Part shown: positions 20,207-55,553 of the stretch, in pieces
How the letters are laid out: every line of letters starts with the position of its first letter
How positions within the stretch are numbered: position 1 is the first letter of the stretch
Source: Trileptium ribeirensis
Taxonomy: Eukaryota; Nematoda; Enoplea; Enoplida; Thoracostomopsidae
Reading direction: 5' to 3'
NCBI GenBank assembly: GCA_030248225.1
Contig: JASANE010012106.1
Location: forward strand, 1-64,000
DNA length: 64,000 nt
Program-made: the position numbers and the translations under genes
The notes under the pieces: generated by a model
Told to the model about the DNA's origin: nothing
Database searches by the model: none
The model's input: the letters and a program-made list of their open reading frames with translations, nothing else

Positions 20207-20209
20207 ACC

Positions 20210-21095: not shown

Positions 21096-23642
21096 TTAGA
21101 ATTGTCCTACAAAAATGCGCAAACAATTAAGCCCGTACACTTCTCTCAACAGGATTGGATCGTTTACGACTTGCCTGCAAATTGGATGACAGAAATGCGA
21201 TTGTAAACACAGCTTTAGGCCATAGAAATACTGCGACGCATCATCTTTCATTTCGTGGTGTTCCATAATCTGCATAACCGGGCTGATTTCGTTCCAAAAC
21301 TCTGGATATAACCGCTGCAACTTTAGACGTTGCTTTTGACTGGCGCGAAGGAAAGATAACAATTTTTCAATGTCCCATGTGCGGCGTTCACAGCCCTCAA
21401 TAAGCCTGATTTGCAATGAGCGAAAAGGTGCATTATTACAGTACTTGATATAGAAATCTACAGCGGCTGCCATATTCTTGGCCAACAAGGCATTGCCCTC
21501 GGCAGTTTCAAATCGAGTATTTGGACCAAGAATTGTTGACGGGATATACAAATTTGAATGACGCATAGCAAGAGCACCGTTCATAAGCTCAACAATGTTC
21601 AAGTACGATCCACCTGGCCATCTGGTGGTTAAAATCGATAGCCATTGCCTTTTCTCAAAATGCTTTAAAGCAATGAAGAATTTTACCAATATTTTTGTTG
21701 GCCCCTCATGTGGCCCTGCATCACGTCGATACAGAACAAGCCTGTAGTCGTCGGTAGTGAATCGATCTAGTACTTGACACAAATCGTTATGGTGCATTAC
21801 AGCCGAAGGACGAAACCTAAATGTATCCTTCACCACTCCGATAGCCATAGGATCTACATTTGGTCTTGCGGGTATGTAATAACTAGACACCTGGATATTA
21901 CATCTGTATTTGTTAGGGTAATCGGTACGAGGCCGCTGCGGCGGTGCGCAACTTAACGTTACCGATTTATGTTGACAGTGGGTCGCAACTGTGTCGCAAC
22001 GTATAGCAGCACAGTCGTCACTGTCTATTCGAATGGAATGTTCTGTATGCTCTTCCAGTTCGTCTTTTATCGCATAGAAGGCGTTATTCCACATAATATC
22101 GGCACTGAATCGAACCGTAAACCCTTTGTAGCTACGTTGGGAAACTACATCGGCAAACGCGTATCTTTTGCGATGCCGCGAAAACGTTGTTTTTGTTCTG
22201 GGACCACAACATAGCCAAACTAAAGACTGTGATAACTTAGCGCCGAGCATCGTATGCAAATCATTCGCAATTGACTGGTACGTTACTTTAGAAACACTAC
22301 CGTCACTCTGATCGTGGTCGGCACCGATACCGATGACCGTGGCTGATATCTGCCTCCAACGACTTGCACCACAATTATTTTTGCGCACTAATTCTTCGAT
22401 CACTTTTCCAATTTTAGGATATTTTTTATATACACATGGCACGCGATTGGGCCTCACCAATCGTTTTTTACGCATGAGATCAAGCATGCGAATTCGACTA
22501 CGCAAAGTGTATGCTACCATGTGATGCTTTAATTTGGAAGCGAGCGCCGCCAGTTTTTTAGCGTCGCGAGAAGCTTCAAGTAGATCAATAGGATTGTTTC
22601 TATAAAATTTGTCTAAATTGTCGAAATTGAAAGCGAAGTCCATACTGTTTAACAACTGTCTGAATCCATTTGGTACTGGCTCATTTTGGTTCTCCGCGTA
22701 CCATAAAATCTGGTGAAGAAGAAGATGCATCATTTCAGGATCTTCTTCAGTTTTGGTAATAACTGCAAATTCTGTAGCATTGAACTGGTTCCTGCGCTTT
22801 ACGAAATGATAAAGCCTTTGCACCGAGTTTGTGCTGCAGAACTTGGTCATCAAGTCTTCAATGAATTTAATAATACCTGTTATCGGGGTATCCGTAGAAA
22901 TATCTCGCTTCAACAACGCTTGGAGAGCCTTATCAGCTGCCGCCACTTGATTTAGCCGGCGTTCTACGTTCTCAGTCACTGAAATAGGCTTTGCACCTGT
23001 ACCAAGCATTCGCGATTCCCGATATGTTACATTTCGATAGCATTTTAGCAGCGCGTATTTAAGGACAGGTTGCAATGTCATCGGTAAGACTTGTAGCAGC
23101 TGTTTGACAAGTTGGGTATCTAGCTTACACGATGTGGAGACCTTTCCGACAATGTCTATAAGACCAGAGAATCGATCACAATACGCCATTTCTTGATCAT
23201 CACACTGAGATATTTTTTGGAATACTAATACTTCATTCTCAACTTCGATGGAATACGCTACAACTGGAAAATGCATTGCGAAATCAATGGCATTGATCCT
23301 TCGATATCGCTGATTGTAGCAAAGACCCCAGATTTGCTTTAATGTCGCAACAGGATTTGTCATTAAGAAAAGACCCAACTTCACGAGCTGTTTACATCGA
23401 TTTACAAGTCTTGTGTCCATATTATGAGTTTGATAGCGAAGGAACTGTATGCAGTAGCAAACCAACATTTCCTCCACAGTTGTTATTTTTGACACGGTGG
23501 CATTACCACGAGTGACATAGCGCCGTGACCGCACATTTGATGTACAACCACGTAGTTTGTTTGTAGGTAACCTGCAATGCAACGAAAAATGAATTGTTCT
23601 CACCAATTTGCAGAGCATTAATGATGGTGGCGTGTTTTTCAT
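21096..23642 (-). CDS. DDE-type transposase-like protein, 848 residues
   Basis: This is one long uninterrupted frame from ATG 23642 to TAA 21096. The C-terminal half has the spaced acidic blocks of a DDE catalytic core: RIDSDDCAAI (D542/D543), RDAGPHEGPTK (D641) and NIVELMNGAL (E685), with D641 to E685 44 positions apart. The wording resembles a eukaryotic transposase-like family with DDK, then DGGPDENPRY, then NRVERRM blocks; this comparison is from memory. A Cys-His group (SHFCHPICRQ) lies near the end. Upstream of the core are LVRPNRVPCVYKKYP and a basic GPRTKTTFSRHRKR segment. A good splice acceptor (CGTTGCATTGCAG, then 23571) lies inside the first 24 codons, so the true start may be in an upstream exon. 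It lies on the same strand as the protease-SET gene, 3.6 kb downstream of it. The open frame suggests recent activity or selection. Confidence 0.75.
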   Translation of the reverse strand: MKNTPPSLMLCKLVRTIHFSLHCRLPTNKLRGCTSNVRSRRYVTRGNATVSKITTVEEMLVCYCIQFLRYQTHNMDTRLVNRCKQLVKLGLFLMTNPVATLKQIWGLCYNQRYRRINAIDFAMHFPVVAYSIEVENEVLVFQKISQCDDQEMAYCDRFSGLIDIVGKVSTSCKLDTQLVKQLLQVLPMTLQPVLKYALLKCYRNVTYRESRMLGTGAKPISVTENVERRLNQVAAADKALQALLKRDISTDTPITGIIKFIEDLMTKFCSTNSVQRLYHFVKRRNQFNATEFAVITKTEEDPEMMHLLLHQILWYAENQNEPVPNGFRQLLNSMDFAFNFDNLDKFYRNNPIDLLEASRDAKKLAALASKLKHHMVAYTLRSRIRMLDLMRKKRLVRPNRVPCVYKKYPKIGKVIEELVRKNNCGASRWRQISATVIGIGADHDQSDGSVSKVTYQSIANDLHTMLGAKLSQSLVWLCCGPRTKTTFSRHRKRYAFADVVSQRSYKGFTVRFSADIMWNNAFYAIKDELEEHTEHSIRIDSDDCAAIRCDTVATHCQHKSVTLSCAPPQRPRTDYPNKYRCNIQVSSYYIPARPNVDPMAIGVVKDTFRFRPSAVMHHNDLCQVLDRFTTDDYRLVLYRRDAGPHEGPTKILVKFFIALKHFEKRQWLSILTTRWPGGSYLNIVELMNGALAMRHSNLYIPSTILGPNTRFETAEGNALLAKNMAAAVDFYIKYCNNAPFRSLQIRLIEGCERRTWDIEKLLSFLRASQKQRLKLQRLYPEFWNEISPVMQIMEHHEMKDDASQYFYGLKLCLQSHFCHPICRQVVNDPILLREVYGLNCLRIFVGQF

Positions 23643-23649
23643 AAATTAG

Positions 23650-26664: not shown

Positions 26665-27105
26665 TTTTCTATTAAACAGTTTTTGTTGCCATAAACACTT
26701 TTATTGTAAATTATCGTTATTGTTCGTCATATTTCACCCTACACCCAGGAACATCGAAACTCGAGAATGTATGCTTATTTTGCTATATGTATCACTTTTC
26801 ACGCGGCTTACAGCCGGCGCACGAGCCTACAAGTCACCCGCAGCGGCGCCCTGCTATACAACCCTTCCGAAAATCGCAAAAGCAAAAACTCTGTGTGACC
26901 ATCTGCCCACCCCCATATGCTGCGCCTCTGCGAGAAGTTATATCATTTTACAGAATGAAAAATTTCTTATTTGAAGGAATGGGAGCCAGTGCGTGCGGGT
27001 ACTTTGTGTTTTTGATTTTGCGATTTCCAAGAGTGTTAGATTGCAGCTGTGCCGTTGCCGACGGGTTGTACGCCCGTGCGGCAACAAAAAACTGTTTATT
27101 AGGAA
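26665..27105. mobile_element. Fold-back element with eroded inverted arms
   Basis: TTAAACAGTTTTTGTTGCC at 26671-26689 is matched in reverse complement near 27080-27105. The inner segments are inverted with respect to each other at 26812-26900 and 26990-27085: GCCGGCGCACGAGCCTACAA against GCCGCACGGGCGTACAA in complement, and AAATCGCAAAAGCAAAAAC against AAATCGCAAAATCAAAAAC. The block is GC-richer than its flanks and carries no gene. Confidence 0.5.
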
Positions 27106-27266: not shown

Positions 27267-27826
27267 TTATTTTCCTAACCATGGAAATGCACGAACTATT
27301 TCTTTCCGATTATCGTCGTAATTATAATATAGCTCCATTCCGGCCGAAATATTTGCAAGCGCTTTAAAGAAAATGTACGGTACATTCAGAACAGTATCGA
27401 CGTAGCCATATATATTCAAATTCGTTTTTGAATGGTTAATGTAGCGTCCGATACGACGGCTATTAATAGCGTCGATGCAATATTTATGTCCATCCCAGGT
27501 GAAGAAGAATAAAAAGCACATTCCGTTGCTGCAATTCTTAGCACGCTTATTTTCTCGGCGAACTCCCTCAGCTCTAGTGATTAATTCACCTAAATATGCG
27601 GCCACTACTTCGCCTTTCTTGATATCACGGACGGTAAAAACGCCACGTCCCTTTGCACCAGCGCTGTCGATGTACAGATAATCCGGATCGCGATCTGGAT
27701 TTATGAGAGTTTGGTATAGTCTGCTAAGTGAGAACTGTGGTTGTCGCCTTCGCTTAGATACACGACTGATTTCACGTACCTGGTTGTCCATGGCTTCCAT
27801 AACATTGTAGTCGAATGAATCGAGTT
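27267..27826 (-). CDS. Terminal exon encoding a KMT5A/SET8-like SET methyltransferase domain
   Basis: The exon begins after acceptor TTATTGTTGCAG (AG at 27828-27827) and ends at TAA 27269-27267. Counting from the ATG at 27800, residues 44-177 form a complete SET domain: AKGRGVF (49-55, cofactor-binding start), KKGEVVAAYLGELI (61-74), GHKYCIDA (104-111), RIGRYINHS (116-124, the NHS knot) and MELYYNYDD (155-163), ending PWLGK. The order, the short post-SET end without a Cys cluster and the final PWL match KMT5A (H4K20 monomethylase), where SET lies at the C-terminus. The first Tyr of YNY aligns with the residue held to limit KMT5A to monomethylation. A basic KRRR run (16-19) precedes it. Entry is phase 1, compatible with exon 35065-36549. 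Substrate is inferred only. Confidence 0.85.
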
Positions 27827-27829
27827 CTG

Positions 27830-29390
27830 CAACAATAATATATTAAGCATGAATATCCAGTATCGCTCGTATTAAATTAAGCACACGGTATCATACTAAA
27901 AAGGCACATAAAAGCTACGATACGTTTAAACGCGTCGTTTTCAGCAATGTCTAAATCGGTTAAATAGATTTATATTACGGCTATCTCAACTAGAACATAA
28001 AACAGCTTTACCAGTTGGCTCAAATCATTGCATAAACGTTTGCTTTAGGCAATGCGATGCGTTAGCTCTATTGCATTATGTACTAAATGCACTACAGCAA
28101 CTTCTCAACCACGTACGAAAGTGTAAAGCAGTTACCGCAAGCCTACAGCATAAATTTCGCAGCTACATTTGCAGAAGTTGGACTCAATTCTTGTCGTATG
28201 TTCATACACCCTTGAAATTTAAAACTGTTTCTATACTTAAAAGTCATACATTCTTACGCATCGAGGGGTGGACGGGCGGGGTTTAGAAGCCTTCGAAGGA
28301 AGAGGGAGGTCGTCCAGGCGTGCTGATAAAAGTGGACGGCCTCCTTTGTCAACGACCAATTTTTGGGCCGATTTTGCCACTATTTTGCAAATTTTCACCC
28401 TATTTTGCCACATGTTGCCGAAATTTCCCGTGCGCCAAAGGCAAAACCAAAGCCTCGATAGGGAGTCCGGCTCCTTTGGGAGAATGGGGTACACCAGAGC
28501 ATCTGGAGAGGGAGGCCCGAAGCCTCAGGAGGTAGCTCCTGAACTATTGATCGTTGGGCATGTATGCTCAACGATCAATACTTAAATGATGTTCCTGAAG
28601 AAAAATTGGAGGATCATGCGACTGTGTTTTCTAAAACGAGGAGAAAAATGAGCGTGTAGCCAGAGATGTTTGAATGTAAAATATTCGAGCATGCGCCTGC
28701 GCGTTTCTCTGCGCCACGAGATTCAAACTCGCAGGTTTAGTCCTTTCGTGCCCATCAAGTCCTAAAGTACTTCGCACATATTGTCAATGGTTGCGTTAAT
28801 TAAGTTGATCGCATATGTTTGAACGAGCGATATATATATACTCGTATATACTCGATATATATATACAGGTATATACTCGTTATAAACAAGCTGTCAGAAA
28901 ACAAGCTGTCCGGGCATTGACGTACCCAGAGACAACGTTTAGAATTGGAAGGGGCTTGGAAATAGCTAGAGACTGTTAATTACTAATGACCGTTGATCGT
29001 AACTGAATGTAATAGTTTCTACTACATAGTTCATCGGATTGAGGGTGCCTAAGCCCTATAAAGCCTCTCCGAGTATACCCATGATTGTAGGTCAGCGTAG
29101 GAATGGCAGATATTTTATGCTATTTGTTATCTGTCAGCCGTTTCAACACTGGGTACAAATTTTGCTATTTTGAAGTAAATTTCTTTTGAAGTTTACGTGG
29201 CGAAAATGTCTTGTATGAGCTCATATTGAAACTAAGAGAAAGTAAACGTAGAGATCTCTAAAATCTCAAAATTAGGTTATTGATGAACAAACTATTAATA
29301 CTTTTCACTGCAGAGATAAAATTTTAGGATCAGGCAACCAAGGCAACACGGGACGAGGCGGTCCCAACAGCGGCGCCAGTAGCGAGAGCC
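27830..29390. other. Intron sequence with repeats, no gene recognised
   Basis: Contains a GC-richer block at 28258-28510 with AATTTT-like words (possible relative of 12070-12310), a 36-bp near-perfect palindrome at 28545-28580 (TATTGATCGTTG at one end), and TATA-rich sequence at 28830-28880. Confidence 0.4.
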
Positions 29391-29391
29391 A

Positions 29392-29769
29392 CGTTTTATA
29401 ACTAAACGCAAGAGTTGAAAATGGTGTTTTACTTCGCTTTCAAAACATTTCTACACGCTCTTCACTGTTTCGCCTCTTTTATAATTGAGACATAGCGACT
29501 AGAATCGATAGAATTTCTAAAAAAAGGTTCTACGCAGCAATGGTGCATCCACAGTTTCACGTTGGGGAGACCCCGAAATGCGTTTTACAACTAAACACAA
29601 GAGTTGGAAATAGTGTTTTACTTCGCTTTCAAAACATTTCTACACTCTCTTCACTGTTTGCGCCTCTTTTATAATTGAGACAAAGCGACTAGAATCGATA
29701 GAATTTCTAAAAAAGGTTCTACGCAGCAGTGGTGAATCCACAGTTTCACTTTGGGAAAACCCTGAAATG
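29392..29769. repeat. Tandem duplication, 2 x 189 bp
   Basis: The block starting CGTTTTATAACTAAACGCAA at 29392 recurs at 29581 as CGTTTTACAACTAAACACAA and stays aligned to about 29769 with few differences (CGACTAGAATCGATAGAATT in both). Confidence 0.9.
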
Positions 29770-32610
29770 TGCCAATCCCCCCCTCAAACCCGAGAAGCCG
29801 CACTCTCCGCTCTCCCCTCCATCGCCTCTGAGGCACTGCAACACCACACTCTTGAGGCGCGCACAACCTGACGAGGCGCTCCAAAGGAAAAATTTTAGCA
29901 ATACTAGAAAAATTTTAGGGCGAAATCACTGACTATTATAGGCAACATTGCGGTGCCTGCAGAAATCTTTTCGTTACTCCCTTGGCGTTCTCCCGCATAA
30001 AAATTCTACATTTTCGTCGACTGACCGTGCTCAATTGTGCATGTTGTAGTGAGGGATGCGACATACGGAATATCATGGATCCAATATTGCTGCGTACTAT
30101 TCAGCAGATCCGGTATTACTGTACTAGATTAGATTTCCTGTTGTCCGCTTGGGCAACACAAAAACCCTTAAATCGTTCACATTTACCATTGAAGTCTTTG
30201 ATAAAATCTTTTAACACCAAAATAAGAGTATCTTGGATCAAAACAGTTAACGAAGAGCTACTTTATTAGAAAAGACTCCGATTTCTAAGCTTAGTATATT
30301 ATATACACAACATTTTGCAAAAGTTGTTTTCAAACTATAAAACTTTACATAAAATTTCGTTTTCAGAAATGATACATTTTCTTTAAAACATTTATAATAT
30401 AGGTTGTATAAATATCAAATTTACCACGATTAGCGTCAAAGGATACACATAAAAACTATCTTATGAAAAAATTATTAAACAGATAAAGACAAAAGTAGAA
30501 GTTATATTCTGTAAAATAGATCCGGAGTCCTTGGCAAAAAATTAATACATGCGAATAATTATTTTCGTCAAAATCCAAGAAAAACATTTTCCTCTTGCTT
30601 TTGTGTCTCGCGTATTTAACTTTAGGTCCCTGAATTTATGATTATCCTTTTTCTGTAAAATGTTTATTGTATTTGAAAAAGCAATTTTCCTAACTTGAAA
30701 AACAACACATGTCAAGATAATATGTAGTTCAACAAACTTTATTACAATCTAGAGAAGTATACTGTAAATAAAAGGTTACTAATTTCGGACCTCAATGCCA
30801 CAGTCAACAGGTACTCGCACCAGCGTGCAGGGTACCATTCCAAAAACTGCCAGCGAATCTATCACCGGATGTGAAATACAACGTTAACTTCATAATACAG
30901 CACATAGGTTACAAAAATTATTTTTGAGTTTTCTTACATCAATATAATCTCAAATTTACAACGTTTTTATGGTTTTCAATTTGCTTGTGAATTCAATACA
31001 AAACATCTATTCTGCTGTTTAAATTCGGGGTTTGACAGAAAAATTATGGAAAGTTTTTCTTCCAAACGAACTTTTTCTTCTTTTTAGATTTTTAATTTGA
31101 ATTTTATAGCATTGGCGGTCGCGTTCTAAAATTTAGGTTCAAATTTTACAAAAGTGCTTAGTTAACAGTCTAGATTATTACTCTTTTCAATCTCACGTAA
31201 ACGAAAATACCAAGTTAATATTCTGTAAATATAGCAACATATTAGTTTTTAAGCAGAATATCAGCACATACCAGCAAAATATTCCGGTAAAGATATATAT
31301 ACTTTAATTTACATGCAAAGTAACTAATTACTCAGTGAAAAGAAGCATAAACGTAGCCCCTATTCTGTTGCACCCCTTACTCTGAAATACATCCGTTCCG
31401 AGGTTATTGTCATCTTAAATAAGTTAAACGATTATAGCTTTCACAGCTTTCCTTTACTTGTTTCGGAAATCTGCACCTGAACTCAAACATAGCTCGATTC
31501 ACTGTTTGGAGGTTCAAAACTGAGCTCTCTCAATCCGCTTCAAAGTCACAATAAATTAAACAATGCGTCTGTAATATGACGGTTTTCTTCAAAGCGTTTT
31601 TCGTAAACCTTGCACTGTTGAGTTCTTCTTCAAGTAACCAAAACCTCTGTAATATTCCAAATTTAGCAATCAACTTTAGCCATCAGAATTTTAAAGGCAA
31701 TAACGACATCTGTAAACATATTCAAGTGTTAGTACGCGACTCCGCAGCATCAATAGGACTTCATGCTGCATAAATTCATCCCAAAATTGAAGTAAATTAC
31801 ACTTGCCAATAAATGAGCTTGACGAGTCTTTCGTTTTATCTGCAGTTCCACATGTTGTTGACAGCTGTTCATCCTCTAAAAATTATTATTTATACAGGAT
31901 GCAATAAATAACCCTTTTAAACATAAAACCTTAGTTTATCAATACCGGGAAGTTTTACAACGCAACATTTTTTAGTAATAATTTTAATCAATCTATCGTC
32001 GCCATGAGGAGCCGAACACTGTACGTAATTGATTTAGGGTCCAATTCCGAATCAGCGAACACCAGCGGACACTCGCTATATAAGCATATATTTGATAAAA
32101 AAGGAAATAGCAATCACACACGCTAGCTTACGACGCACAGCTAACTGATTTCGCGCAACACTTCTCATTGTATATTCCATAGGGTTCAATCCGTCATTTG
32201 CGTCTGGCATAAATGCATATGAATGGTTGACCTTGCGATTCCGAAATAACGAGAGGCGGAAGGGTCATATTATCCCATCTGGCCAACTGCTGCACCTACC
32301 GGCAGCCGGCTTCGAAAAATCGTGATTTCTTCAGTGATCACAATCCGCCTCGTCATTTTTTGGTCGACCACGAAAAATGCGGCATTGGCAACGAAAGTTC
32401 GATAATAAACAACAAATTTGGGTTAAACATAATCAATCATGTAGTGCTGATGGTGCAGTGACTGATTACGACTGGATTTTAAACTGCTTTCGCAACCTAT
32501 GAGTTTTTGAATAAATAACAGTTTTCACCTGCGACTATCATTTGGGCCGCCTGCCTTCCCATCATGTCTCGGTGGCATAACTGGGTCCGAGTTCGCGATC
32601 GCCATTTGGT
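29770..32610. other. Intron sequence, no gene recognised
   Basis: A short C-rich block at 29770-29880, then AT-rich sequence to 32 kb with no coding-like frame or repeat. Confidence 0.45.
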
Positions 32611-32611
32611 A

Positions 32612-34488
32612 GGTTCGCCGTAACCTCGTAACGTTTTGGTTTTAGCTTTTGGGGCTTCAGAATATGTTAAAAAACAACTACATGTAGGGCAAGTGAAAAG
32701 TATATACGACATGAACAATGATACTTAGAAATCTAAAGTTTTCTTGAAAGTAATTTATAAGTTTGGAAAGGTTTATCTGAAAAAAGGCATAAAGGCCCCG
32801 TTAGTTTTATTTATGATAGATATGAAACGTTACACGTAATGGGAGCTGTTGAATTATCTTGTTTGTATGTAAAACTAAATCTGGAAATGCATTGCAGATT
32901 GAAACAATTTTTTAAGTATGATATACCTATCATTACATATTTTGATAGTGTTTTAGAGAGCCTTTCAGTGAAATCGTTCTATTGCGCTGCAGTCACTCTC
33001 GATAACACTTATGTTACGGTTAAATGTTCTCTCATGTTCGTTGCTAATCATAGAGGTAGAACATTGGATGTTGACATGAGACTCCTTAAGATATGGCGTA
33101 AAAGTTTTTTGTACTGCTAATCACAACTGACTTCACTATTCGCTAAAAATTTTGCCAATTAAACAAGAATTGACCGAGGAGTTTCGCAATCTGTAAATTT
33201 TCAAATTTCAATGTTTTTTAAGAAAAATGCTAAATATAGGTTTGCCGCAACCAGGTAACGTTTTGGTTTTGGCTTTTGGGGCTTCAGAATATGTTAAAAA
33301 CAACTACATGTATGGAAAGTGAAAAGTATATACGACATGAACAATGATACTTAGAAATCTAAAGTTTTCTTGAAAGTAATTTATAAGTTTCGAATATCTG
33401 AAAAAGGCATAAAGGCCCCGTTAGTTTTATTTATGATAGATATGAAACGTTACACGTAATGGGAGCTGTTGAATTATCTTGTTTCTATGTAAAACTAAAT
33501 CTGGAAATGTATTGCAGATTGAAAACAATTTTTTAAGTATGATATACCTATCATTACATATTTTGATAGTGTTTTAGAGAGTCTTTCAGTGAAATCGTTC
33601 TATTGCGCTCCAGTCACTCTCGATAACACTTATGTTACGGTAAATGTTCTCTCATGTTCGTTGCTAATCATAGAGGTAGAACATTGGATGTTGACATGAG
33701 AGTCTTTAAGATATGGCGTAAAAGTTTTTTTGTACTGCTAATAACAACTGACTTCACTATTCGCTAAAAATTTTGTCAATTAAACAAGAATTGACCGAGG
33801 AGTTTCGCAATCTGTAAATTTTCAAATTTCAATGTTTTTTAAGAAAAATGCTAAATATAGGTTTGCCGCAACCTGGTAACGTTTTGGTTTTGCCTTTGGG
33901 GCTTCAGAATATGTTAAAAACAACTACATGTAGGGCAAGTGAAAAGTATATACGACATGAACAATGATACTTAGAAATCTAAAGTTTTCTTGAAAGTAAT
34001 TTATAAGTTTCGAGAGGTTTATCTGAAAAAAGGCATAAAGGCCCCTTTAGTTTTATTTATGATAGATATGAAACGTTACACGTAATGGGAGCTGTTGAAT
34101 TATCTTGTTTCTATGTATAACTAAATCTGGAAATGTATTGCAGAATGAAAACAATTTTTTTAAGTATGATATACCTATCATTACATATTTTGATAGTGTT
34201 TTAGAGAGCCTTTCAGTGAAACCGTTCTATTTCGCTCCAGTCGCTCTCGATAATACTTATGTTACGGTTAAATGTTCTCTCATGTTCGTTGCTAATCATA
34301 GAGGTAGAGCATTGGATGTTGGCATGAGAGTCCTTAAGATATGGCGTAAAAGTTTTTTTTGTATTGCTAATCACAACTGACTTCACTATTCGCTAAAAAT
34401 TTTGCCAATTAAACAAGAATTGACCGAGGAGTTTCGCAATCTGTAAGTTTTCAAATTTCAATGTTTTTTAAGAAAAATGCTAAATATT
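32612..34488. repeat. Three-copy tandem repeat, period 621-627 bp
   Basis: The marker ACGTTTTGGTTTT occurs at 32631, 33258 and 33879, and the copies match almost base for base, ending AAGAAAAATGCTAAATAT. Each copy contains a frame of about 92 codons on the plus strand (32839-33120 and 34105-34380 open, the middle one broken by a deletion). Differences in it are not of the synonymous type expected of a gene, so I do not call it coding. The array lies in the longest intron of the protease-SET gene. Confidence 0.9.
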
Positions 34489-34489
34489 G

Positions 34490-34990
34490 GTCTTTTATAA
34501 ATGATACACAGTTAATAATATTGGTCTTAGAAATGCTACACAAAACTCTCAGACAAAGTCTCTAAAAATATTAAACGGATTTCTGCTTTTTAAAGAGTTT
34601 TTACCTAATTTAATCGAATTTTTAACGTCCAATAGGTATTTTAGCCGAAAATTTTAACAAAATGTATATTAGCTGGGGTATTATAACCGGGCGATGAAGA
34701 AATTTCGCCGTAGGATACGAATCAATGAGTATATATCAAAAATGTCAGTGGCCGTCAACACCCCCATTTTGAGAAACCAGTGACAGAGTGCAATATTGTG
34801 TATAAAATACATACCATTGCGATAGTCACCATCACGGAAAAAACGCGTCCGCGCCCAATTCCCCTCTCCCCTTACGGTAAAAACACGCGTGGTCGTCTCT
34901 ATTACAGTAGTAAAAATATTAGAACTGCACTCAACCTTTTGTTTGGAATGTTTATGCAAACTAAAAAATAATGGCCTAACTCAATCCAAT
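34490..34990. other. Intron sequence, no gene recognised
   Basis: AT-rich sequence between the tandem array and the preceding exon. A minus-strand frame at 34681-34959 has no splice sites that fit. Confidence 0.4.
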
Positions 34991-35029
34991 TGATCAGCAC
35001 AGAAGACCCTTTAAATTTGGTTCTCTTAC

Positions 35030-36549
35030 AGTAAGATTACAATAGATTGTAAACATAGGCACACCTTGTTGCGTTACACCTTGGGAAACAACATTGTCTG
35101 TTGGTGCTGCAGCACGTGGACAATCAGAGTCGTCACTATCTCGTATTCGAATTTCGGCGGAATCCACCGTTGACTTCGTATGACAGTTTCCATCTACGCC
35201 ACAGTCATACCGATCAAGAAATCCACTGTCTACCTTGTTGGTCAAATCTTCGTTGTGGCATTCTTCTTCATCGCTTTCGTCAATTACCAGCGAATTGTCA
35301 CGGTTGTCCACCTTCAAATCTTCACGCGCAATTTCGCCCCCATTTTTATTGCTGTGGTTAATGTTGTCTACGCTCATGTATGATACTCGGCGGCAAATTT
35401 CTTCCTCAGGTGAAGGATTGTTGCCATCAACCTGGTTATCCCACCTCAAATTATCGCGCGCCTCAAGTGCATGATGAGCAGTCTTGGCTGTAGCAGCTGT
35501 AGTGGAATTGTTAATATTAACAACAGCAGAGCACTTTGTAGACATAATAGGGCTTGTTGTGGACATTTGTGTTATGATTTCATTCGTCCCTGAAAGACTG
35601 CCACAACCGAATTTAACCATCGTAGCATCATCGGATCTATGAATATCGACAGGCAGCGCATAATGTGCTGTGCGGCGGCTGTGGTCGTCTGCAACAGGCT
35701 TGGTGAAGTTGTGTTGTTGCGGAAACAAACTGTCTGATGCAGTGCTACAGCTGAGAACGTTGTTACCACCGATTTGGCTACATTCAACAGGTTTAGCAAC
35801 CGTATCAACAATGATCGGACTACATACGACTGGCGGATGCACGTTCATAAAATACATGTTACCGTCAATTATAAGTAAACTACCACTACACAAACCGCCG
35901 ATACCTGTTGGGTTCTGGAATATTTGAATGGCCGAAATTAAACCGCTTGCGTTAGCGATAATGACTTCACTGTCTTTTGCACCCTGGCGAACATCTCGTT
36001 GACCGTTTTCACAATAATTAGTTACCGGACTGTTGATTATATAACTAACATATTTGTTGCCGCCGCATTTCAACTCATTTTCTGATAGTGACCCAACATA
36101 GTGATCTGTAATTTGACCCAGTTGGTCATCAACGACTCTAACACAACGCGTATCGGTTACTGGCGATTTTTCTCTTCGTAATTTCATTTCTTCAGGCGGT
36201 CGCTGAAGCTGAGTTGCCAGATGAGTGTCAAATTCGCTTTCACCAACATTTTGTATTGTTTTGGCAGCTTCGCAATACTGAATTATTCTATCAACACCAC
36301 AAGCACTTTCAGCGCTAGGTAGCACATAATCAGCCGATTTGTTGACTGACTCAGCTAAAGGCACCGATTGGATGTCAAAGTTTGCCACGGAGACGCTGCT
36401 TTCGGGGCTGGGCAACATATAATCAACCGACTTATTGATCGACCTGAAAAGAGGCTTCGACAAGTTTTCCACAGAATTGTGGCGTTTGACTCCTTCAACG
36501 ATGAATGGTTTCTGGATACCAACTTCAGTAACAGCCGCGCAAGCTTCAA
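35030..36549 (-). CDS. Internal exon of the protease-SET gene, Ser/Asn/Asp-rich linker
   Basis: The exon starts after a strong acceptor (TTATATTACAG, then 36549), phase-1 entry. Three donors are possible: GTAAGA at 35029 (best sequence, phase 0), or GTGTGC after CAAG at 35065 and GTGTAA after CAAG at 35080, both phase 1. Only the last two fit directly to the SET exon at 27826; the first needs another exon. About 495-507 residues, rich in Ser, Asn, Asp and Val, with no domain I recognise and probably largely disordered. A short duplication is visible near the start (SINKSVDYMLPSPES, then SVNKSADYVLPSAES). An acidic segment (DESDEEECHNED) lies toward the end. Confidence 0.65.
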
Positions 36550-36892
36550 CTGTAATATAAAATATATTACAATGTGTATTATGCACTAGAATATAATAAC
36601 TGTGTAGACACGTTTTAATAAACTAAAAGTTAACGAACTAATGATCGTATTCCGATCGCATGAATCTAATTCCGTTCTGGATTGTTACGAGACAGATTAA
36701 TCGTCACCACAGCGTAAGGGGCAACATTATCGCACTCTAAGCCCATGTCCGCTATATGAATTAGCACTAAAATTACCACTTGCCAACAAAATGCACATTT
36801 CACTAAAAACAACGATCCGACGTTAAGCGGCTAGGGATTGCCCATCCTTAGTGGGGGCTACACTAGTGATAAATAAAATTCAATCAACACTT

Positions 36893-37297
36893 TCAGTTCG
36901 AACCAGAATAGGGAATGGCCGTATGACCTTCTTGACCTGGAGCAAGTGACAGAGGCAACCTCCTTGAGACCTCAAAGGTAGTTCCACATAGATTACGTAC
37001 GCAACCCATCTGGCAGCATTCGAACAAATCCTGCAAAGCACTCCTGCAGCTCATTAAACGCCGTAGTTTCTTGGGACCGACCGAGAGAAATGAATCAGTT
37101 AGACCTGTCCTTGAGATCACGATATCTGGGGTTGTATGGGCATTGCTTTTTAAGTATGCAGTGCACAGCGTAATGGCCGTGTTACAAATGCATATTTCGT
37201 ATCTGTTTTGAATTAGAATATTTAACCATCTAGCTTCAATACATTGGGAGAGTTTCGGTTGGCCGAAGTTGCTAACTTTCAAAGCATAAAAAAACAT
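36893..37297 (-). pseudogene. Fragment of an unrecognised coding repeat, copy 1
   Basis: A minus-strand frame contains SVGPKKLRRLMSCRSALQD then CCQMGCVRNLCGTTFE. It is clearly related to the frame at 47903-48310 (PVGPKKLRRLANRRDVSQD, CRMGCTRSLYDTTFE). Upstream of VGPKKL the match to copy 2 continues only in another frame and includes a stop, so this copy is broken. It lies in the intron before exon 35030-36549. The family is unknown to me. Confidence 0.5.
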
Positions 37298-37299
37298 GC

Positions 37300-37770
37300 C
37301 TCATCTACACATATTTATGCTTCAAAGCTAAATTTTTTTCTACACAAAAAAGTTCCACCACCAGCGGCATAATACGCTACCAGGCCTTTATTTAGTAAGG
37401 TTAATCATTTAATAATTAAAAAAATTTCCAAGCAGAGCACAGCCATTATCATTGTTTAAAGCCGTTTAAACCCATAATAGTTTCTTGAAAACGATCAGAT
37501 TAACAGCCGATGATTACATATCGTTACCCAGATCCACGTGATATTCCATGCATCCGCAGGTGAAAGCCGATACTTGAGCACCTCACCTGAACAATGGGGG
37601 CCCACTGGCTGCCCTCTAATTCTTTTCAAAATTGTGGGGAAGTCGGTGAACATTATTCATAATTTATGCGGCGTTTACGTTATAAAACGCCCGCCATGTA
37701 GAATATTTGTCCCTATGTGATCACGACCATAGTATGGTGCATGGTAGTCGGAAGGATATACTATGCAACA
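37300..37770. other. Intron sequence, no gene recognised
   Basis: AT-rich, followed by a short GC-richer part at 37530-37730 without clear structure. Confidence 0.4.
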
Positions 37771-37776
37771 CAAGTA

Positions 37777-38109
37777 ATGGTGTCTCAGACACCATGTACA
37801 TTACACTATGGTGTCTTCGACACTCTATGCTTAAAAAAGGCAGGGAAATTAGCTAAGTGAAGTTTTAAATTATTTAGGCCAAATCCAATAAATCATGCTG
37901 TATAAAATGTTGCGTAGGAAATGCAATGACAAATCTAGCACTGTATAAATTCGATACAACGAAAAGACAACAAGGCATCTTCCCAAAATCTTTCATCACC
38001 GCTAGCTAGAAGTTGATGGTATCGATTACATCATACATAAATGCTGATGGTGTCTAAAACACCATATATAATTGCTTAGAATACCGTGTTGGTGTTCTGT
38101 ACACTATAC
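37777..38109. repeat. Cluster of four related hairpins
   Basis: Variants of one palindrome occur four times: ATGGTGTCTCAGACACCAT (37777-37795, exact), ATGGTGTCTTCGACACTCTA (37808 on), ATGGTGTCTAAAACACCAT (38047-38065) and TGTTGGTGTTCTGTACACTA (38087 on). They form two pairs about 270 bp apart. Possibly remnants of short MITEs or recombination sites. Confidence 0.7.
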
Positions 38110-38291
38110 CGTTAACAGGGTTAAGCAGGCTGTACGCGGACAAAACTTCCACATGCTGGGCAACTGACAACGTAAACGCCGCATTATTAAAATTAATAAC
38201 TGCAGATTATAGTGCTTAAATTTATACCCGTAATCTTAGAGAGGCCCATTATGTTAAGGGCGTCTGGCAGACGGAGCTACGAAAATTTTAC

Positions 38292-38315
38292 CTGGGTGCA
38301 TCATTTGCACCCCAG
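38292..38315. other. Hairpin CTGGGTGCA / TGCACCCCAG
   Basis: CTGGGTGCA, loop TCATT, TGCACCCCAG, with one bulged C. A second small GGGGAA/TTCCCC hairpin follows at about 38341-38355. Confidence 0.5.
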
Positions 38316-38537
38316 TTCCGACCTGGGGAACTAAAATTATATGGGGAATTTCCCCACTGCATTAACGACTGATTGGAATTGTTAATATCTGACCGGAGAA
38401 TACGTATGCGAATGAAGAAATGTATAATAGACGAGTACTATATTTTAAATACATGCAAGATAAACAATTTAACTGTTGCGATTTTGCAAAGATGTAAAAT
38501 ACAATAAAATCTAATCAAATCATTAGGTAAAACATAC

Positions 38538-40067
38538 GTTTGCTCATGAACTGCTGACGTAAATTTTGGCGCCGCACATTACATGCTAATGCACTCATGT
38601 TGAACGGAAAGGGCATGCCATTTAGCGCACGAATTGCTGCTTCGATAATATATATTCCACAATTGTTTACCCCACATTGTTTGCCACAAATCGGCACCTT
38701 CTCAAATTCCCAGTTTTCGCCCCAACCAACAGAATCGGATATTAGGGTAACAAGTTTCTTAGCAAGGACTAAATTTGGGTGTCCCAAGGAACAGTATACA
38801 GCCGCATACTTTGTGTCCTTGTGCATCCACATCAACTGCCAATGATCTGGTTCTATGTTGTAATTGACACATCTGCTCTGCTGTTGTTGCTTTGAGTAGG
38901 AAAACGTATGCAATGGTAACATTATGCTTCGTTTCTTCCGGCATATATCTTGAATGCAGTGCTGAATATCTAGCAACTGTTGTGGTGGACCAGTTTCCGA
39001 ATTAAGTATAGCTATCCAATGAGATGTTTCCGCCGCACTTAAAAGCGCCCAATCAGGAAAATTTGTCATATGAAAATTTATTGAAGCTGCAATAATGTTG
39101 TCACCTAATAGCTGTCCATCTTGTAAGTCATTAAGGTCAGATTTATAAACAGTGAAACCAGCAACTTCTACGGAACTCGTTGTAATCTTATTCGTTGACG
39201 TAGATATTTGTAGATCCTGACCAGATTTCGACGAGTTACCACACGAGGTAGAAGTCGTGTTGGAAGCTCTCATTACATCAGCATGCATATTAACTGACTG
39301 CGACAGTGATTCCCCAAACAGAGTATGCCGCGAGCACGGGATCAATGAACAGCTGTCGATCGCAACAACTACATTATTTTCAGCCCCTGTATCATTGTAT
39401 TTCTGAACAACAGTTGCTGCTCGTACGCTGGCACAAGTAGATGTCATGTCAAGAAGTAAAGCCCTCGACGTTTGATCATAACTTTGGCGGATATTACCAT
39501 CTGTCGTAAGACTGGATGTTGCAGTAGTTGCAAATTTTTCGGGCACTGCGGTCGATGCATAATCCTTATTTGGAAACAGCTCTTTTGACAAATCTAAAGA
39601 CGACAGCTGGTAATTCGTGTCGTGTTCAGATTGTGTGACATCAGCTTGAGACGTGACTGTCAGGGTAGTTTCGTGAGGCGGCAACGGCACTGATGTTGCA
39701 GCAACTACAGTTTTGTCTCTAAATGTCTCGATGTGTTGCAGTTTGCTAGATGCATTGCTAATTACTGACGCAGATGTCGCTTGATCACGATGTTGGTTGA
39801 TATGGCAATGCGGTTTAAGTGTGGACGTCGTAGTAGTTGCAGATAATACATATTTTGCAAGCCCTCCAGTCGATGCATAACCCTTATTCGGGAACAGCTC
39901 TTCCGATAAATCTGAAGATCGCTCGAAGTAAGCAGACGACCGCTGGGAATTCTTAGCGCTGTCTGATTGAGTGAACCCAACCTGAGACGCAGCTGTCAAA
40001 TCAGTTTCGTACTGAGACGACTGCGAAGGTGTTGGCGTAGCGCAATTGCTATGAGGCAATGGTTGAC
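38538..40067 (-). CDS. Internal exon encoding a Ulp1/SENP-like (C48) cysteine protease domain
   Basis: Acceptor TTTTAATTTAG gives phase-1 entry at 40067; donor GTATGT after AAAC gives phase-1 exit at 38538, compatible with both neighbours. If the donor is not used a TGA ends the protein at 38515. Counting from 40059, residues 1-300 are Ser/Thr-rich with an internal duplication (LSEELFPNKGYAST near 55, LSKELFPNKDYAST near 165). Residues about 315-500 resemble the Ulp1 protease fold: a WALLSA/SHWIAI part, DHWQLMWM (H406), YCSLG (421-425), and KQCGVNNCGIYIIEAA with Q461 and C467 as in the Q-x5-C block of SENP proteases. Ulp1 enzymes cut SUMO precursors and remove SUMO from proteins. The Asp usual in the YDS block is Cys423 here, so full activity is uncertain. 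Confidence 0.7.
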
Positions 40068-42010
40068 CTAAATTAAAACAACAACCATTTCTCTAGTTAA
40101 CGTTCTGGCGGGTCGCAAATTCGGAATTAATTGCGACCCTAAGGAAGGGGCGAGCCCCGAATAGCGGTCGCATCTAAATGTTCGAGGTGTATCTACCTAT
40201 GAGTGCAAATGAAGCTGTATAATTGCGAGGTAGCCATCTTTACAGTCACAGATGCGTTACAGTAAATTACCTCACAGTCTTTAGCAACGTCGAAAATCTT
40301 CATAATCACTAATAAAACAGGAACTTAGAACATCAGGTTGAAAACCTTTACGTTATTTACTCTTTGCCTGCTGAAAGTTCATATTTCGGCAGGCCAGGAA
40401 TTATTTTTCTTTAAGTGAATGGTTGAAATTAAACGAGCTATATTAAGCTTGGTTATAGCGGTTTTAAAACGATCATTTTTAATGCCATTCCAAAATGCTG
40501 GGTGGTGTTGGGGGCGATATCTTGGGAGAGGTCAAAATTCAGGGGATCCCTTATCCGTTATAAAGAGGCCAGATTCCTGAGAGAACTGGTGATTTTTAAC
40601 GAATAGAAGCCAAAAATCCCTGGTTTGTACAAAGGGTCTCCACATTTTGGCAGGGTGTGCAAGAAACCGGAAGTACCTTTTAACAGCCCAAAATATCCGA
40701 CCCTCAACATACTAATTTGGAAAGCCTAGTGCCTTTCAGCACACACGTTTATAGCAATAATACAAAATATATAGCTACTACTTTGAAAGATAAATTATTT
40801 CCCACTCAATCATTTTGAACGTCAAGATTGATCGCAAAAGACTCACTTATTCTTTTATAGTAAACTACACAAGTCATTACTACCTTGTAAAATTCATAGA
40901 TTTCTCGATGAGTGAGGAATGCCGCACTGGCAAAATTTACAGGGATTTAATGCGCGAGTAATTTATGGTGACCCCATTAACCATTCTATTTTACAATTTC
41001 AGATAAAAATTGTTACGGAACACTTTTGGGTTGATTGCAATTCGGCGCAAAGGCTCACCTTAACCCTTTCATGCCCGAATTATATTTCGAACAAGGAAAA
41101 ATGTTTGTTCATATACAAACTGTGTAACACCGATTATACATCCAATAAGAATAAAATTTGTTGAAATCTGTTTCCCTCTAGTAAAAATGGGAGGGGGGGC
41201 TTACCAAACGACATGTCCGAGTGATCTTGGAACCTGAAACACGTCACCTGAGATCCAAAAAATACAACGTAAATATGATAGAAGAAATTAGCAAAATTTA
41301 TGGTATTGTGCGCTAAATCGCAAACTACACTAAACAGTATTGTCGAAAACAGCTTGCTACATATCTGTTAGAAACTGAGTTAGAAGCGCATTGATGATTT
41401 GCCGCTAGCTGTACACGACCAGCGAGGGTTATTATTTGGCAAACCCGACACAAATTACCCATTACCCGCACACCATCCGCAGGTGTTTATTATCTAGTAC
41501 ATACAATTGACTTTTGTAGTGATCGCTATGAGATACATCCTCTGAACATGAGAAGAGTTCTTATTGCATATTTTCTAAATCGGGCGCTGCTCTCCTAGGC
41601 CTCAACAGCATAAAGAAATGTCACCACTAAACGAATAAGTGCGGGTGTGCGCAGCGCCTCTGCTTAGTAAAAACAATACATAAACTTCGAGGTATTCTTC
41701 CCATGATCCAAATCGAGTCTATTCGGTGTGTTTCGCACTTATGCCTTAAGTTTTTGCCCATACCACATTTTGCATTTACGCGTTGACTGCGGATGCTTCT
41801 GGGTGTTACTTATGATCTGCATATAAAGTGTTTCAAGCTAGAGAACTGCATTTGCTGTAACTGCATATAGTGTGTTGAAATTCTCAAACATGGAAGATTA
41901 TTTTACACATCAATACATGACCAACATGTAAGCAGACATAGTTGTCTCCGGTCGTTGCCCTGTATATTGGTATAATATTACGAAATTAACGTTTATTGTT
42001 AAGTGGCCAA
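40068..42010. other. Intron sequence, no gene recognised
   Basis: Holds a hairpin at 40110-40139 (GGGTCGCAA at one end, TTGCGACCC at the other) and a GC-richer repeat-like block at about 40490-40700. The rest is AT-rich. Confidence 0.4.
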
Positions 42011-42015
42011 TAATT

Positions 42016-42650
42016 CTACAAATAATCGTGTCTTTCATGCCCTGGTTCAAATGCACAATCTCTCAACGCAAGGTGTTTCGAGGTTCCGTTTTTACTAAAC
42101 CGTAAAGCTGTATTCCCGTGCCTCACAACGCGGACCGCAAGCACTGATTTAGTAAATTTGAAAACTCGACAATTGCTTAGGATATTGTCCATTTCATCCC
42201 CGGAAACAACTTCAGTTGTAATATTTTCAATTACAGTGATAAGCAATAAAATAATTGGTATTTTTGTTGAAACATAATCCAACACTCTCTGAAGCCCGCA
42301 CTAAGTTGACTTCCCACAAATTCCCTTTGCGAGTGGCGTGGGGATAGCAGCATCCCGGCTTAGTAAATATGAAATGGTAATCAATGCAACCAGAAACTTC
42401 AATGCATGAGCCAAAACGTAAATGAATTCGCACAAATTCTATTTGTAAAGACTAATGCGTGCTCGGAAATGCTGTAATTGAGCGGGTTTGCTGGAATTGT
42501 GCGTATATACGACATATAGGATACTTTTTGCTATCTGTTACCTGAACTCGCTTACACGTCCTAGTTTTACCGAGACATCCCGGAAATGCTAGTTGGCATG
42601 CATGAATTAAATGATAAGTGTACTCTTCCCATCGACAATGCAACAAGATT
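42016..42650 (-). other. Cluster of coding-like frames, possible decayed exons
   Basis: Three overlapping minus-strand frames have protein-like composition: 42646-42452 (HACQLAFPGCLGKTRTCKRV, followed by a CAG/GTAACA donor), 42433-42227 (after acceptor CTTTACAAATAG; FTKPGCCYPHATRKGNLWEV) and 42285-42016 (FTKSVLAVRVVRHGNTALRF). The last two share a weak FxFTKxxxxxxxxxRxGN pattern, suggesting an old duplication. Phases of the first two do not join directly. They could be an alternative last exon or a dead inserted gene. No family recognised. Confidence 0.25.
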
Positions 42651-43022
42651 TATATTTTCACATTAAAGTACGACATAATCTCAGAAAAAATTAAGTTCAA
42701 CCTTGAAAATCACAACACAAAATTGAGGCTGTAAAATACACATGCTTTGTTGTTTTCCTCGTTAGGTATATAATTATACTGTGCTGAATGTTGCCAATTG
42801 GCATGAACGGGCGCTCGGGTGGTGGAGATTGAAAATTACAGATAATGAACAATTTAACCCTGAATTCCGATCGGCATTTCTGTGCATGAAAGGGTTAATA
42901 TTACTCACGCATAAAGAAACCAGTGTATATACTACTATTGTATCATGTTATCCAGTTTAAATCAAGGCCTATGAATTTAAACCTGTTAAGATGTATATGT
43001 GCTAAAGAACAAACAGCATTAC

Positions 43023-43806
43023 CCATGATGGTTATACGACTATCTTGGACATTGTCGTGGATTGTGCTAATTTCCCCAAATATATTGTCGATGTCATCAT
43101 CAATGTTCACTGCTGGAACCGCATTTTTGAACTGCTGATTAGTCATAGACTCCACATCGCGAACTCGCTGTGCTAGCCGCCATGCACGCTTTCGAGATCT
43201 CTCGGTCGCTTTCTTTCCCATTTTCGCTTTCTCGCAGTCAGTCGTTTCTTTAATTCTCTGCAATTTTTTGATTGCCTGCTCGACTTCAGGGTCTTCCGAA
43301 CAGCGTCGCCTCAGTAGAAGTCGTTGGATTTCGTCCAGGTCAGAATATTGGTTTTCCATTTTGTGAACGTAAATTTGAGTACGCCTATCTATTTCGGTTG
43401 AAACATCTGTCTCTGGTGACGTTTCCACGGATTCTGTATCGGAATCTTCATCGTCACTGTCACAATGCAATATATCTTTGAACGCATTTCGAACTGCGAA
43501 CGGAACATACACGCAAAACATGGCGTCGTTTGTCAGCACCAATCTTACGGCTTTAGCGTTTTTCTTCAAAGTTTTTTTTCGTCGCTGGCATTTCATAATT
43601 GTTCGCATCGAAAAAAACCGAACATGTGGATTTGGATATCTGAGTTTTATCTCGGCGCTGAGCACAAATTTTTTTGGTAAAAAAGGTGCTAGTATATCGG
43701 GCACACCTGATATTGGATTGGTTTCGCAAATGTCAATGCCGTAAAAAATGCGCTCAAAATCTCTAATGGACTTCATATTATTCCAATAATCGGCTTTCGC
43801 CACAGC
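43023..43806 (-). CDS. Internal exon of the protease-SET gene, charged N-terminal part
   Basis: Acceptor ACGTATTTTCAG leads into phase-0 entry at 43806, matching the phase-0 exit of exon 45105-45356. Donor GTAATG after ATGG at 43023 leaves phase 1, matching the entry at 40067. It encodes 261 residues. An early part is globular (YWNNMKSIRDFERIFYGIDI, then PHVRFFSMRTIMKCQRRKK). Next come an acidic segment (DSDDEDSDTESVETSPETD), a Glu/Arg/Lys-rich helical part with nuclear-localisation-like basic runs (KKATERSRKRAWRLAQR), and a tail (NIDDDIDNIFGEI). No known domain is seen. The frame itself runs on to a stop at 42943. Confidence 0.65.
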
Positions 43807-43931
43807 CTGAAAATACGTAATAAACAGCGATATACTTTATTGTCTTGCAAATTCTATTTGCTACAGAATCATTAATATCGCCAAATGTTTGCCATTTTGG
43901 TTTGCTTTTCCAGAATTTAACATATCTACAA

Positions 43932-44190
43932 TTTATGCTCGCCACCCAGCCGCCCATCCCACGTGCCGAACGCGCGCTGACAATTTTGGCAGCAATAGTT
44001 TAAAATTAGGGGATAAATCAGCGAAAAAGGAGAAATTGGGACAAATTGTTAAATGAGTGCCAAAAAAATTGAAAATTTAACTTACCAAAAACTTCAAACA
44101 TGCATCACCCTCTGACGGCCTCCCCCGCCAAAACTCTTCCCCCGTCGCACCCGCTATCACCCTGGGACTTCGGACTCGCCCATGTATGAT
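43932..44190 (+). repeat. Dispersed repeat R1, copy c
   Basis: It ends with CCTGGGACTTCGGACTCGCC then CATGTATGATG, as in copies a and b. The middle has AAATTGGGACAAATTG-like words. It lies in the first visible intron of the protease-SET gene. Confidence 0.5.
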
Positions 44191-44539
44191 GCAAAATACG
44201 CGAAAATTTAAATATTGTTGATCATTAAACAAACAGATCAGTTTCGAACAATTTTTTACTTTGATAATCATTTTACTAGATGATACAACAAAGCTATTAA
44301 TGGGTCACAAAGAAGACCAGGTTGCCGTTTCGCAATAGGAGACTACATTATGTTGCAATCTAAAACGTGAAAAATGGGTGTTGAACGAAATATAATGTTG
44401 GTTAGTAATCTTCAAAATTTTAACTCTGCTTGGTTCCTGAATAATGTACTAACAGGTTTCATTGCCTGCATTCGCACCAAAAACGGCCATTCAGTTAACT
44501 TTCAAAAATACTGATTGTATAATGTGTGAGTCCACTTTA

Positions 44540-46110
44540 CATGCATACACCAAGGCTGTTCTTTCGTCGAAATCACGAACTGATTCGCGCATAAATTCGC
44601 CTTCACATTTTTCCATTGGTATTTGCAGTTTTATGAACGCGATGAGCTAGCTAAGCGAGGTACTAATAAAATTAGCGTCGCGGACATAATTGTTTCTTTC
44701 GCATGTTTGCTCGCGTACATCAAATGACATTCTGAAACAGACAGTATTTTTCGCGGTCTACTAGCATACGACAAAAACAACGACTGGTTGTCGCGTTCTG
44801 ACTTGTGCGCAATGAACAAAATGCGATGCTATATCGAAAAATAATGACCGCGAGGAAAGCCTACGCGTTGCTGTATTTGCAAATCGTGTACTCGCATATA
44901 AGGGACAATCGTGATTTTTTCGCGTTCATAGGGTTTGCGATGGTGAACTGACTTGAAACTCAGGTGTACGCACCAAAAGCGGACTCGCGCATGAATGCTA
45001 TTGTTTCACCAGGCATTCAGGGGTTTAGTAACTTTAACTTAAAACTTTTATTTCCCTTTTCGCACGAGTAACTAGTGAATTAAATTTAGATTTTAGGTAC
45101 TTACATCTATAATTGATGTCACCTCTTGATATTGTGTATTTGCTGTTTGTCGCGAGTTTTTCGGCGTCGTTGTCATTTTTCCATGTTTAAACTTTCGCTT
45201 AATGTCTGGTGGTGTGAGCTTGCTAGTTTGAGCTCGTTTTAGAGTCAAGGCCATGTTTCGTGCAACTCCAGCTATCGATGTGGCTACATTACGAGGTGTA
45301 CTACAACTGAAGCGATTTCTATTACGACATCGTTGTCCGTCAGGTGACATTTGTACCTGCAAATATGTCAGGAGCTTGTTTTAACAAAATTACTTTTGAA
45401 ATATTCCATTTTGTTGTCCAACTATCTGCTGTACATTATGAAGTTAACATGTTTATGGATTGAGTTAAACGCCAACTGACAGAATACAAATAACTGTTGC
45501 ATATATTACTACGTTATTGTAACCTAATACAATATTCCAACATTACTGCAGGAATGTTTGTTAGGCGTTACAAAAAACGCATTTTCCGCTCCAGAAGTTT
45601 TGTCGTAGTAAAAGACAGCGTCAAAAAATTAAAACAATTCAAACCTTAAAACATTGAAAACCCAAATAATTACGCCCTAATGTGCTCAAAGAAAGGCAAC
45701 GCGTGGTGTACAACAGTTTATAACCAGTGGCTATACATATTCCAAATGGTTTTAGAAAGCGACAGGCTTTGTATTCAATCCAAATTTTATTCGCAGACAA
45801 ACCCACTCGCGAGGATTCTTTTAAAAATTATCCGGACTGCAGATTCTAACAAAACAAAATGTAAAACAATCACACGAAAATCAAAGTGATTATGCACGTC
45901 CACGTTATGCGTAAATCGTGGTTGTTCCTCCGTCAAAATCGCGAACTGAAGCGTTCGAACAGCATATACATATTGCTTTGCTACATAAGGCAAATTGCAA
46001 TTTAGTAGCGATCATGACTTTTACAGTCTTGAACTGACTTGACAAACCTGACGTACGAAGCAAAAGTGGATTCACGTATTATTCAAACAGTAAATAATAA
46101 ATGCTGACGA
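44540..46110. repeat. Diverged duplicated segments flanking the first visible exon
   Basis: Sequence at 44870-45010 (GAACTGACTTGAAACTCAGG at 44945) recurs at 45900-46110 (GAACTGACTTGACAAACCTG at 46031), each followed by a CAAAAGCGGACTCGCGC or CAAAAGTGGATTCACGT string. A third, weaker relative is at 44550-44640. Exon 45105-45356 lies between them. Confidence 0.45.
45105..45356 (-). CDS. Most upstream exon found of the protease-SET gene
   Basis: This 252-bp exon lies between acceptor ATATTTGCAG (AG at 45358-45357) and donor GTAAGTACC after ATAGAT at 45105. It is read in phase 0 at both ends and encodes 84 residues of basic, Thr/Ser/Arg-rich sequence (SPDGQRCRNRNRFSCSTPRN, then KLTPPDIKRKFKHGKMTTTP). 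No domain is seen; the basic runs suit a nuclear or nucleic-acid-binding tail. The splice sites are the best in the window. The start codon must be further upstream, beyond 45356, and was not found. Confidence 0.6.
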
Positions 46111-54900: not shown

Positions 54901-54903
54901 TTG

Positions 54904-55543: not shown

Positions 55544-55553
55544 CAAACCGAAA

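Follow-up and report, generated by a model that had tools for sequence, protein, structure and literature searches.

Background

Expanded families of KMT5A-like genes are among the described systems closest to the locus considered here. In the passages available from PMC10368294, 65 such genes are counted in Hydractinia, 24 in Hydra, 61 in sea urchin and one in Nematostella. The SET domain is N-terminal in most of the Hydractinia genes and in most of the urchin genes that are expressed in the embryo, and C-terminal ends are common to the longer KMT5A-like genes of Hydractinia and urchin. The pairing of a C48 (Ulp/SENP) domain with a SET domain is not described in the available passages of PMC8885841 and PMC12062965, and the open-licence literature gave no protein with both domains among the matches listed. 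Here we describe a locus of the nematode Trileptium ribeirensis, found on contig JASANE010012106.1 of the NCBI GenBank assembly GCA_030248225.1. The window is the whole stretch analysed, positions 1 to 64,000 of the forward strand. It contains a real multi-exon locus in which a Ulp/SENP-fold domain, a stretch free of recognised domains and a KMT5A-type SET domain follow each other in that order on one strand. Taken singly, the likeliest model joins all five exons in one transcription unit, which may also have a second end at the TGA at 38515. We infer the splicing from the sequence and give this model a probability of roughly 0.4.

Reading frames and the SET exon

The five minus-strand blocks listed in Table 1 (the first taken from 45356) total 4,611 nucleotides (nt) when joined. 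Their translation from the ATG at 45350 gives 1,534 amino acids (aa) and a stop, with no internal stops. The initial annotation had proposed five minus-strand exons that can be joined in consistent phase, and re-reading and re-joining the sequence confirmed both this and the total length. The five exons, together with an 849-aa open reading frame (ORF) located downstream of them, look coding and not like chance frames, because both their lengths and their codon scores stand out. The longest five frames in the window have 849, 542, 525, 297 and 250 aa, while the maximum in five first-order shuffles was 208 aa. Codon usage was scored by a leave-one-out model on these six long blocks, with 243 intron values as control. 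The frame proper to each block was its best-scoring frame in all six, and each whole block exceeded the top intron value of 0.080. When the blocks were divided into pieces of at most 600 nt, 4 of 22 pieces fell under that value, one from exon 3 and three from the 849-aa ORF.

The last block encodes a SET domain which is, with strong support, predicted to be a methyltransferase domain of the KMT5A type, divergent but intact-looking. Pfam recognised SET with an E value of 8.3e-18. The best match in PDB was KMT5A/SETD8 (E 6.5e-24, 87.8 bits); chains of KMT5A/SETD8/SET8 filled the top 14 rows among the best 60 of 102 matches, and the first other chain was an EZH2 chimera with 65.1 bits. BLASTP against the human KMT5A stretch gave 59 identities in 169 positions. 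A KMT5A-like SET domain at the C-terminal end, as first proposed for this locus, is thus strongly supported. The only NCBIfam match of the exon was a bacterial SET protein far below threshold (34.8 bits against a cut-off of 550).

The active site of this domain looks intact, because the alignments show KGRGV and INHSK conserved, together with two tyrosines in the ELxYxY stretch close to the C-terminus and the final FPWL. We take the GRG, NHS and tyrosine residues to serve cofactor binding and catalysis. The frame stops two residues past FPWL, and human KMT5A likewise ends two residues after it. A version of the exon trimmed to 27803, directly ahead of the ATG at 27800, scored as a complete SET domain too.

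The C48-like domain

The protease part of exon 3 is probably a remote C48-like homologue with a changed catalytic triad, and profile comparison supports this assignment. Our own C48 profile was a three-sequence alignment of yeast Ulp1, human SENP1 and human SENP8. Against it, hhalign gave the protease region a probability of 68 and an E value of 4.8e-5 over 157 columns (residues 20-206 of 233), and the alignment spans residues 30-198 of 219 of the Ulp1 sequence as typed. The hhalign score was 38.0, whereas none of 200 shuffles exceeded 22.3 and none of nine other window blocks exceeded 20.1. With hmmsearch the same profile gave the protease region 17.9 bits, against 11.8 for the best of 20,000 shuffles. 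In the profile alignment the His-Trp pair is retained, and so are Gln and Cys at the Ulp1 spacing (QxxxxxCG). The oxyanion-type Gln lies six residues before the Cys, in QCGVNNC here as against QPNGYDC; the oxyanion role of this Gln is our assumption.

The S/T-rich part of exon 3 carries an internal duplication (39518-39600 and 39836-39918, 79% alike).

Joints between the exons

Splice-like sites of consistent phase are present at all four joints. All five frames open 16-73 nt ahead of an acceptor-like site, and the first four close 8-79 nt beyond a donor-like site of fitting phase. Donors and acceptors were scored with simple generic matrices, and a model trained on the species could rank the sites otherwise. 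On these matrices the phase-correct donor at 35064 scores 8.4, the best of the four joints. The initial annotation had named the intron from 35065 to 27827 as the weakest link, with 35029 as its best donor; this does not hold on the scale used, where 35029 scores 4.9. The joint into SET was accordingly rejected as the weakest one, its donor outranking the other three. The weak donors are those at 43022 (4.1; 9.0% of GT as high) and 38537 (4.4; 7.7% of GT as high), which flank the protease exon. The chance of an equally good right-phase donor in the ORF tail is 0.0017 for joint 1-2, 0.136 for 2-3, 0.034 for 3-4 and 0.0098 for 4-SET, on the assumption of independent joints and with boundaries chosen beforehand.

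The position of the first Met also bears on the joining of exons. It is found 207 residues in for exon 3 and 44 residues in for exon 4; an exon ahead of it is thus certain for the former and probable for the latter. At the other end of exon 3 a right-phase donor stands 22 nt ahead of the TGA at 38515. Neither AATAAA nor ATTAAA occurs over the 1.1 kilobases (kb) after this TGA, and one such word lies past the SET stop; this pattern is mild evidence only, because the background is 1.8 words per kb.

Two tandem arrays lie within the putative last intron. One consists of three head-to-tail copies of a unit of ~620 base pairs (bp), ~96% alike, at 32610-34491, and the other of two tandem copies of a 189-bp unit at 29392-29769.

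Points against a single gene and alternative models

Several results weigh against one gene that joins a protease to a methyltransferase. A Ulp1/C48-like domain had been proposed for this locus from the beginning. It stands as a remote homologue by our own profile, but sequence searches missed it: no C48 family was found in Pfam for the whole of exon 3 at E ≤ 1 or for the domain at E ≤ 10, and none for the protease exon in PDB (phmmer) or in NCBIfam. The His-Asp-Cys triad is not complete: a Cys stands in the Asp position, at the Ulp1 distance of 17 residues from the His, and WLND of the Ulp1 family reads LLGD here. The loss of this Trp argues against a working SUMO protease, and the replaced Asp makes an active protease doubtful. 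The label of active C48 peptidase was rejected. An AlphaFold2 model built from the single protease-region sequence reached a mean pLDDT of 33.8, too low for use.

In a control of the joints with 19 hand-picked minus-strand ORFs (the six blocks and 13 others of ~100 aa or more, at least one such ORF being omitted), 164 of the 342 ordered pairs could be joined in phase at the loose threshold, 99 with shorter search stretches and 48 at the strict threshold. Phase consistency alone is therefore weak evidence. At the strict threshold joints 1-2 and 4-SET pass, and joints 2-3 and 3-4, on either side of the protease exon, fail. Read on to the TGA at 38515, the frame still holds 47 residues after the Cys and 27 after the last aligned one, which would suffice for an ordinary domain end; spliced at 38538, it still holds 20 residues after the aligned region. 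The aligned domain is thus complete with either ending, which leaves the choice between the two undecided. It should also be kept in mind that, according to the available part of PMC3927609, gene-prediction errors are at least as large a source of domain-architecture differences in predicted animal proteins as true rearrangements. Finally, the joined protein, with its SET region scored, gave 197 candidates in the protein collection, none at E ≤ 0.001. The SET exon gave 76 candidates there and no homologue, and for the 849-aa ORF 8000 were scored, none at E ≤ 0.01. Nothing was found in viral contigs searched with SET, the 849-aa ORF and the protease exon, in prokaryote genomes searched with the 849-aa ORF, or in PHROGs below E 0.013. 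No protein of this architecture thus came to light, but these misses say little, because canonical KMT5A did not surface in those collections either; they, or the word filter applied to them, seem to overlook animal proteins of this type.

How else can the same exons be arranged? Two neighbouring genes are possible, though this is not the arrangement we would expect: a C48-like gene of exons 1-3 ending at the TGA at 38515, followed by a separate gene of exon 4 and SET, or by a gene made of just the SET exon, starting at the ATG at 27800. The domain can end normally within the frame up to the TGA, the donor of exon 3 is weak, with joint 3-4 failing the strict threshold that 4-SET passes, exon 4 could begin at its own Met 44, and the SET exon cut just before its ATG keeps the whole domain. 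Against this division stand the right-phase donor 22 nt before the TGA (chance ~0.034) and, mildly, the lack of AATAAA or ATTAAA over the following 1.1 kb. A quite improbable arrangement is that the SET exon continues into the 849-aa ORF, giving a long protein with SET ahead of a large region with no family match, while the protease exons are upstream parts or unrelated. Here a donor ATG/gttagg at 27279 (5.8% of GT as high; right-phase chance 0.014) and an acceptor at 23571 (top 1.3% of AG) form an in-phase joint from 27280 to 23571 across which FPWL is preserved, and the resulting architecture would resemble the N-terminal-SET KMT5A-like genes of Hydractinia and sea urchin in the available passages of PMC10368294. 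However, this joint passes the loose threshold and fails the strict one, the donor has an unusual T at +3, and the unspliced SET frame already stops two residues past FPWL, like the human enzyme.

It is also conceivable, although unlikely, that a large mobile element, intact or decayed, spans the whole stretch and carries the protease, the methyltransferase and the 849-aa ORF as its cargo or transposase. Such an origin is compatible with the other models, and the probabilities behind our wording therefore do not sum to one. Available passages of the literature place Ulp1 domains on Ginger1 and Mutator elements (PMC2836005) and C48 on oomycete Cryptons (PMC3212892), and describe Helentrons with SET and with OTU-protease ORFs (PMC4067079). 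No bracketing terminal inverted repeats were found in the window, however: the inverted matches between the flanks that scored over 34.6 bits, the highest value in five shuffles, were solely a simple repeat of AT type and a dispersed repeat. Nor was a transposase family recognised in NCBIfam or in Pfam, where nine ORFs, five pieces and 137 further ORFs, out of 198 of at least 66 aa, were searched; the 137 gave one marginal family in one member (E 0.0057). The 849-aa ORF had no match in Pfam, NCBIfam or PDB. Its end, with SYLNxVELxNG and IPST, looks like that of DDE-type transposases in a family from marine invertebrates, for which no family match was found.

Among these arrangements the five-exon transcription unit is the likeliest single model. 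A single gene with both C48-like and SET domains is possible, being neither refuted nor proven.

Possible function

If the exons form one protein, its C48-like part would likely bind SUMO and not cut it. Such a part would act as a SUMO-binding or weakly active module that recruits the lysine methyltransferase to chromatin proteins carrying SUMO. The binding of SUMO, the activity of the methyltransferase and its targets are all properties that we infer. Tentatively, and with the odds somewhat against it, we propose a protein of ~1,534 aa in which a Ulp/SENP fold with Asp changed to Cys reads SUMO or works as an altered protease, and directs a C-terminal SET domain of KMT5A type to SUMO-marked chromatin. 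This domain combination would be new and would tie SUMO to lysine methylation, perhaps having arisen from the KMT5A-like expansions of certain animals. A pattern scan found four SUMO-interaction-like matches, divided equally between exons 3 and 4; LVIDESDEEE is one of the pair in exon 4. The pattern is the one we assume for such motifs, and the matches are weak evidence because it is common.

One transcript over all five exons would be a natural fusion of a SUMO-pathway fold with a histone-type lysine methyltransferase, an unusual combination. Even as neighbouring genes, these exons would offer a case for how KMT5A-like genes diversify.

Features of the locus and other observations

Table 1. 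Positions of the predicted exons, domains and neighbouring features in the window
Feature	Position	Strand	Basis
Putative exon 1	45105..45350	-	Open frame; ATG 45350; donor GAT/gtaagt in top 1.1% of GT; codon score above introns
Putative exon 2, no recognised domain	43023..43806	-	Open frame; acceptor in top 3.2% of AG; weak donor TGG/gtaatg
Putative exon 3, S/T-rich N part and C48 (Ulp/SENP)-like domain	38538..40067	-	Acceptor 40067; weak donor AAC/gtatgt at 38537; in-frame TGA ends at 38515
C48-like domain with remaining frame to TGA	38515..39159	-	hhalign to Ulp1/SENP1/SENP8; hmmsearch and hhalign shuffle controls
C48-like residues	His codon 38844-38842; Cys replacing Asp 38793-38791; Gln 38679-38677; catalytic-type Cys 38661-38659	-	
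Putative exon 4, no recognised domain	35065..36549	-	Open frame; donor AAG/gtgtgc (35064) in top 0.7% of GT on the strand
Putative exon 5, KMT5A-like SET exon	27267..27826	-	Ends FPWLGK-stop; in-frame ATG at 27800
SET domain proper	27318..27650	-	Pfam PF00856, frame residues 65-175
AATAAA, 166 nt beyond SET stop	27095..27100	-	Strand background 0.98 AATAAA per kb
849-aa ORF downstream of SET, alternative SET partner	21096..23645	-	Acceptor-like site 23571

Exon 2 had no Pfam family above its own cut-off. Exons 2, 3 and 4, the 849-aa ORF and the 8.1-kb ORF showed no mutual similarity (best E 0.081 over 10 pairs). No RNA families or tRNAs were found in the window.

Several repeats lie between or outside the exons. 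A 156-bp inverted repeat (18502-18657 and 20053-20208), 96% complementary with its arms 1.4 kb apart, is likely a small DNA element. A dispersed repeat has one copy between exons 3 and 4 (36971-37186) and another upstream of exon 1 (48080-48297), 73% alike. At 54882-56431 on the plus strand, a 24-bp minisatellite is followed by ORFs without significant Pfam match that resemble the terminal part of a Penelope-like reverse transcriptase with its GIY-YIG nuclease.

Comparison with known systems

The locus can be compared with four kinds of described systems. With KMT5A / SETD8 / PR-Set7, the H4K20 monomethyltransferase, it shares the best PDB match, the SET motifs and the final FPWL. It differs from this enzyme in that its SET domain is just 35% identical and, if the exons are joined, follows a long unrelated upstream part. 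With the Ulp1/SENP family (MEROPS C48) the likeness consists of HW, the QxxxxxCG spacing and an alignment over most of the domain, whereas the domain of the locus has Cys for the triad Asp and LLGD for WLND and lies below Pfam detection. Ginger1, Mutator, Crypton and Helentron elements, as far as the available passages on them go, resemble it in tying a Ulp1/OTU protease or SET to large unusual genes; unlike them, the locus showed neither flanking terminal repeats nor, in the searches made, any recognised transposase or Rep/helicase. The expanded KMT5A-like genes of Hydractinia, Hydra and sea urchin likewise combine a divergent KMT5A-type SET domain with unusual long genes. There, however, SET is mostly N-terminal and a Ulp1-like domain is not named in the available passages of PMC10368294.

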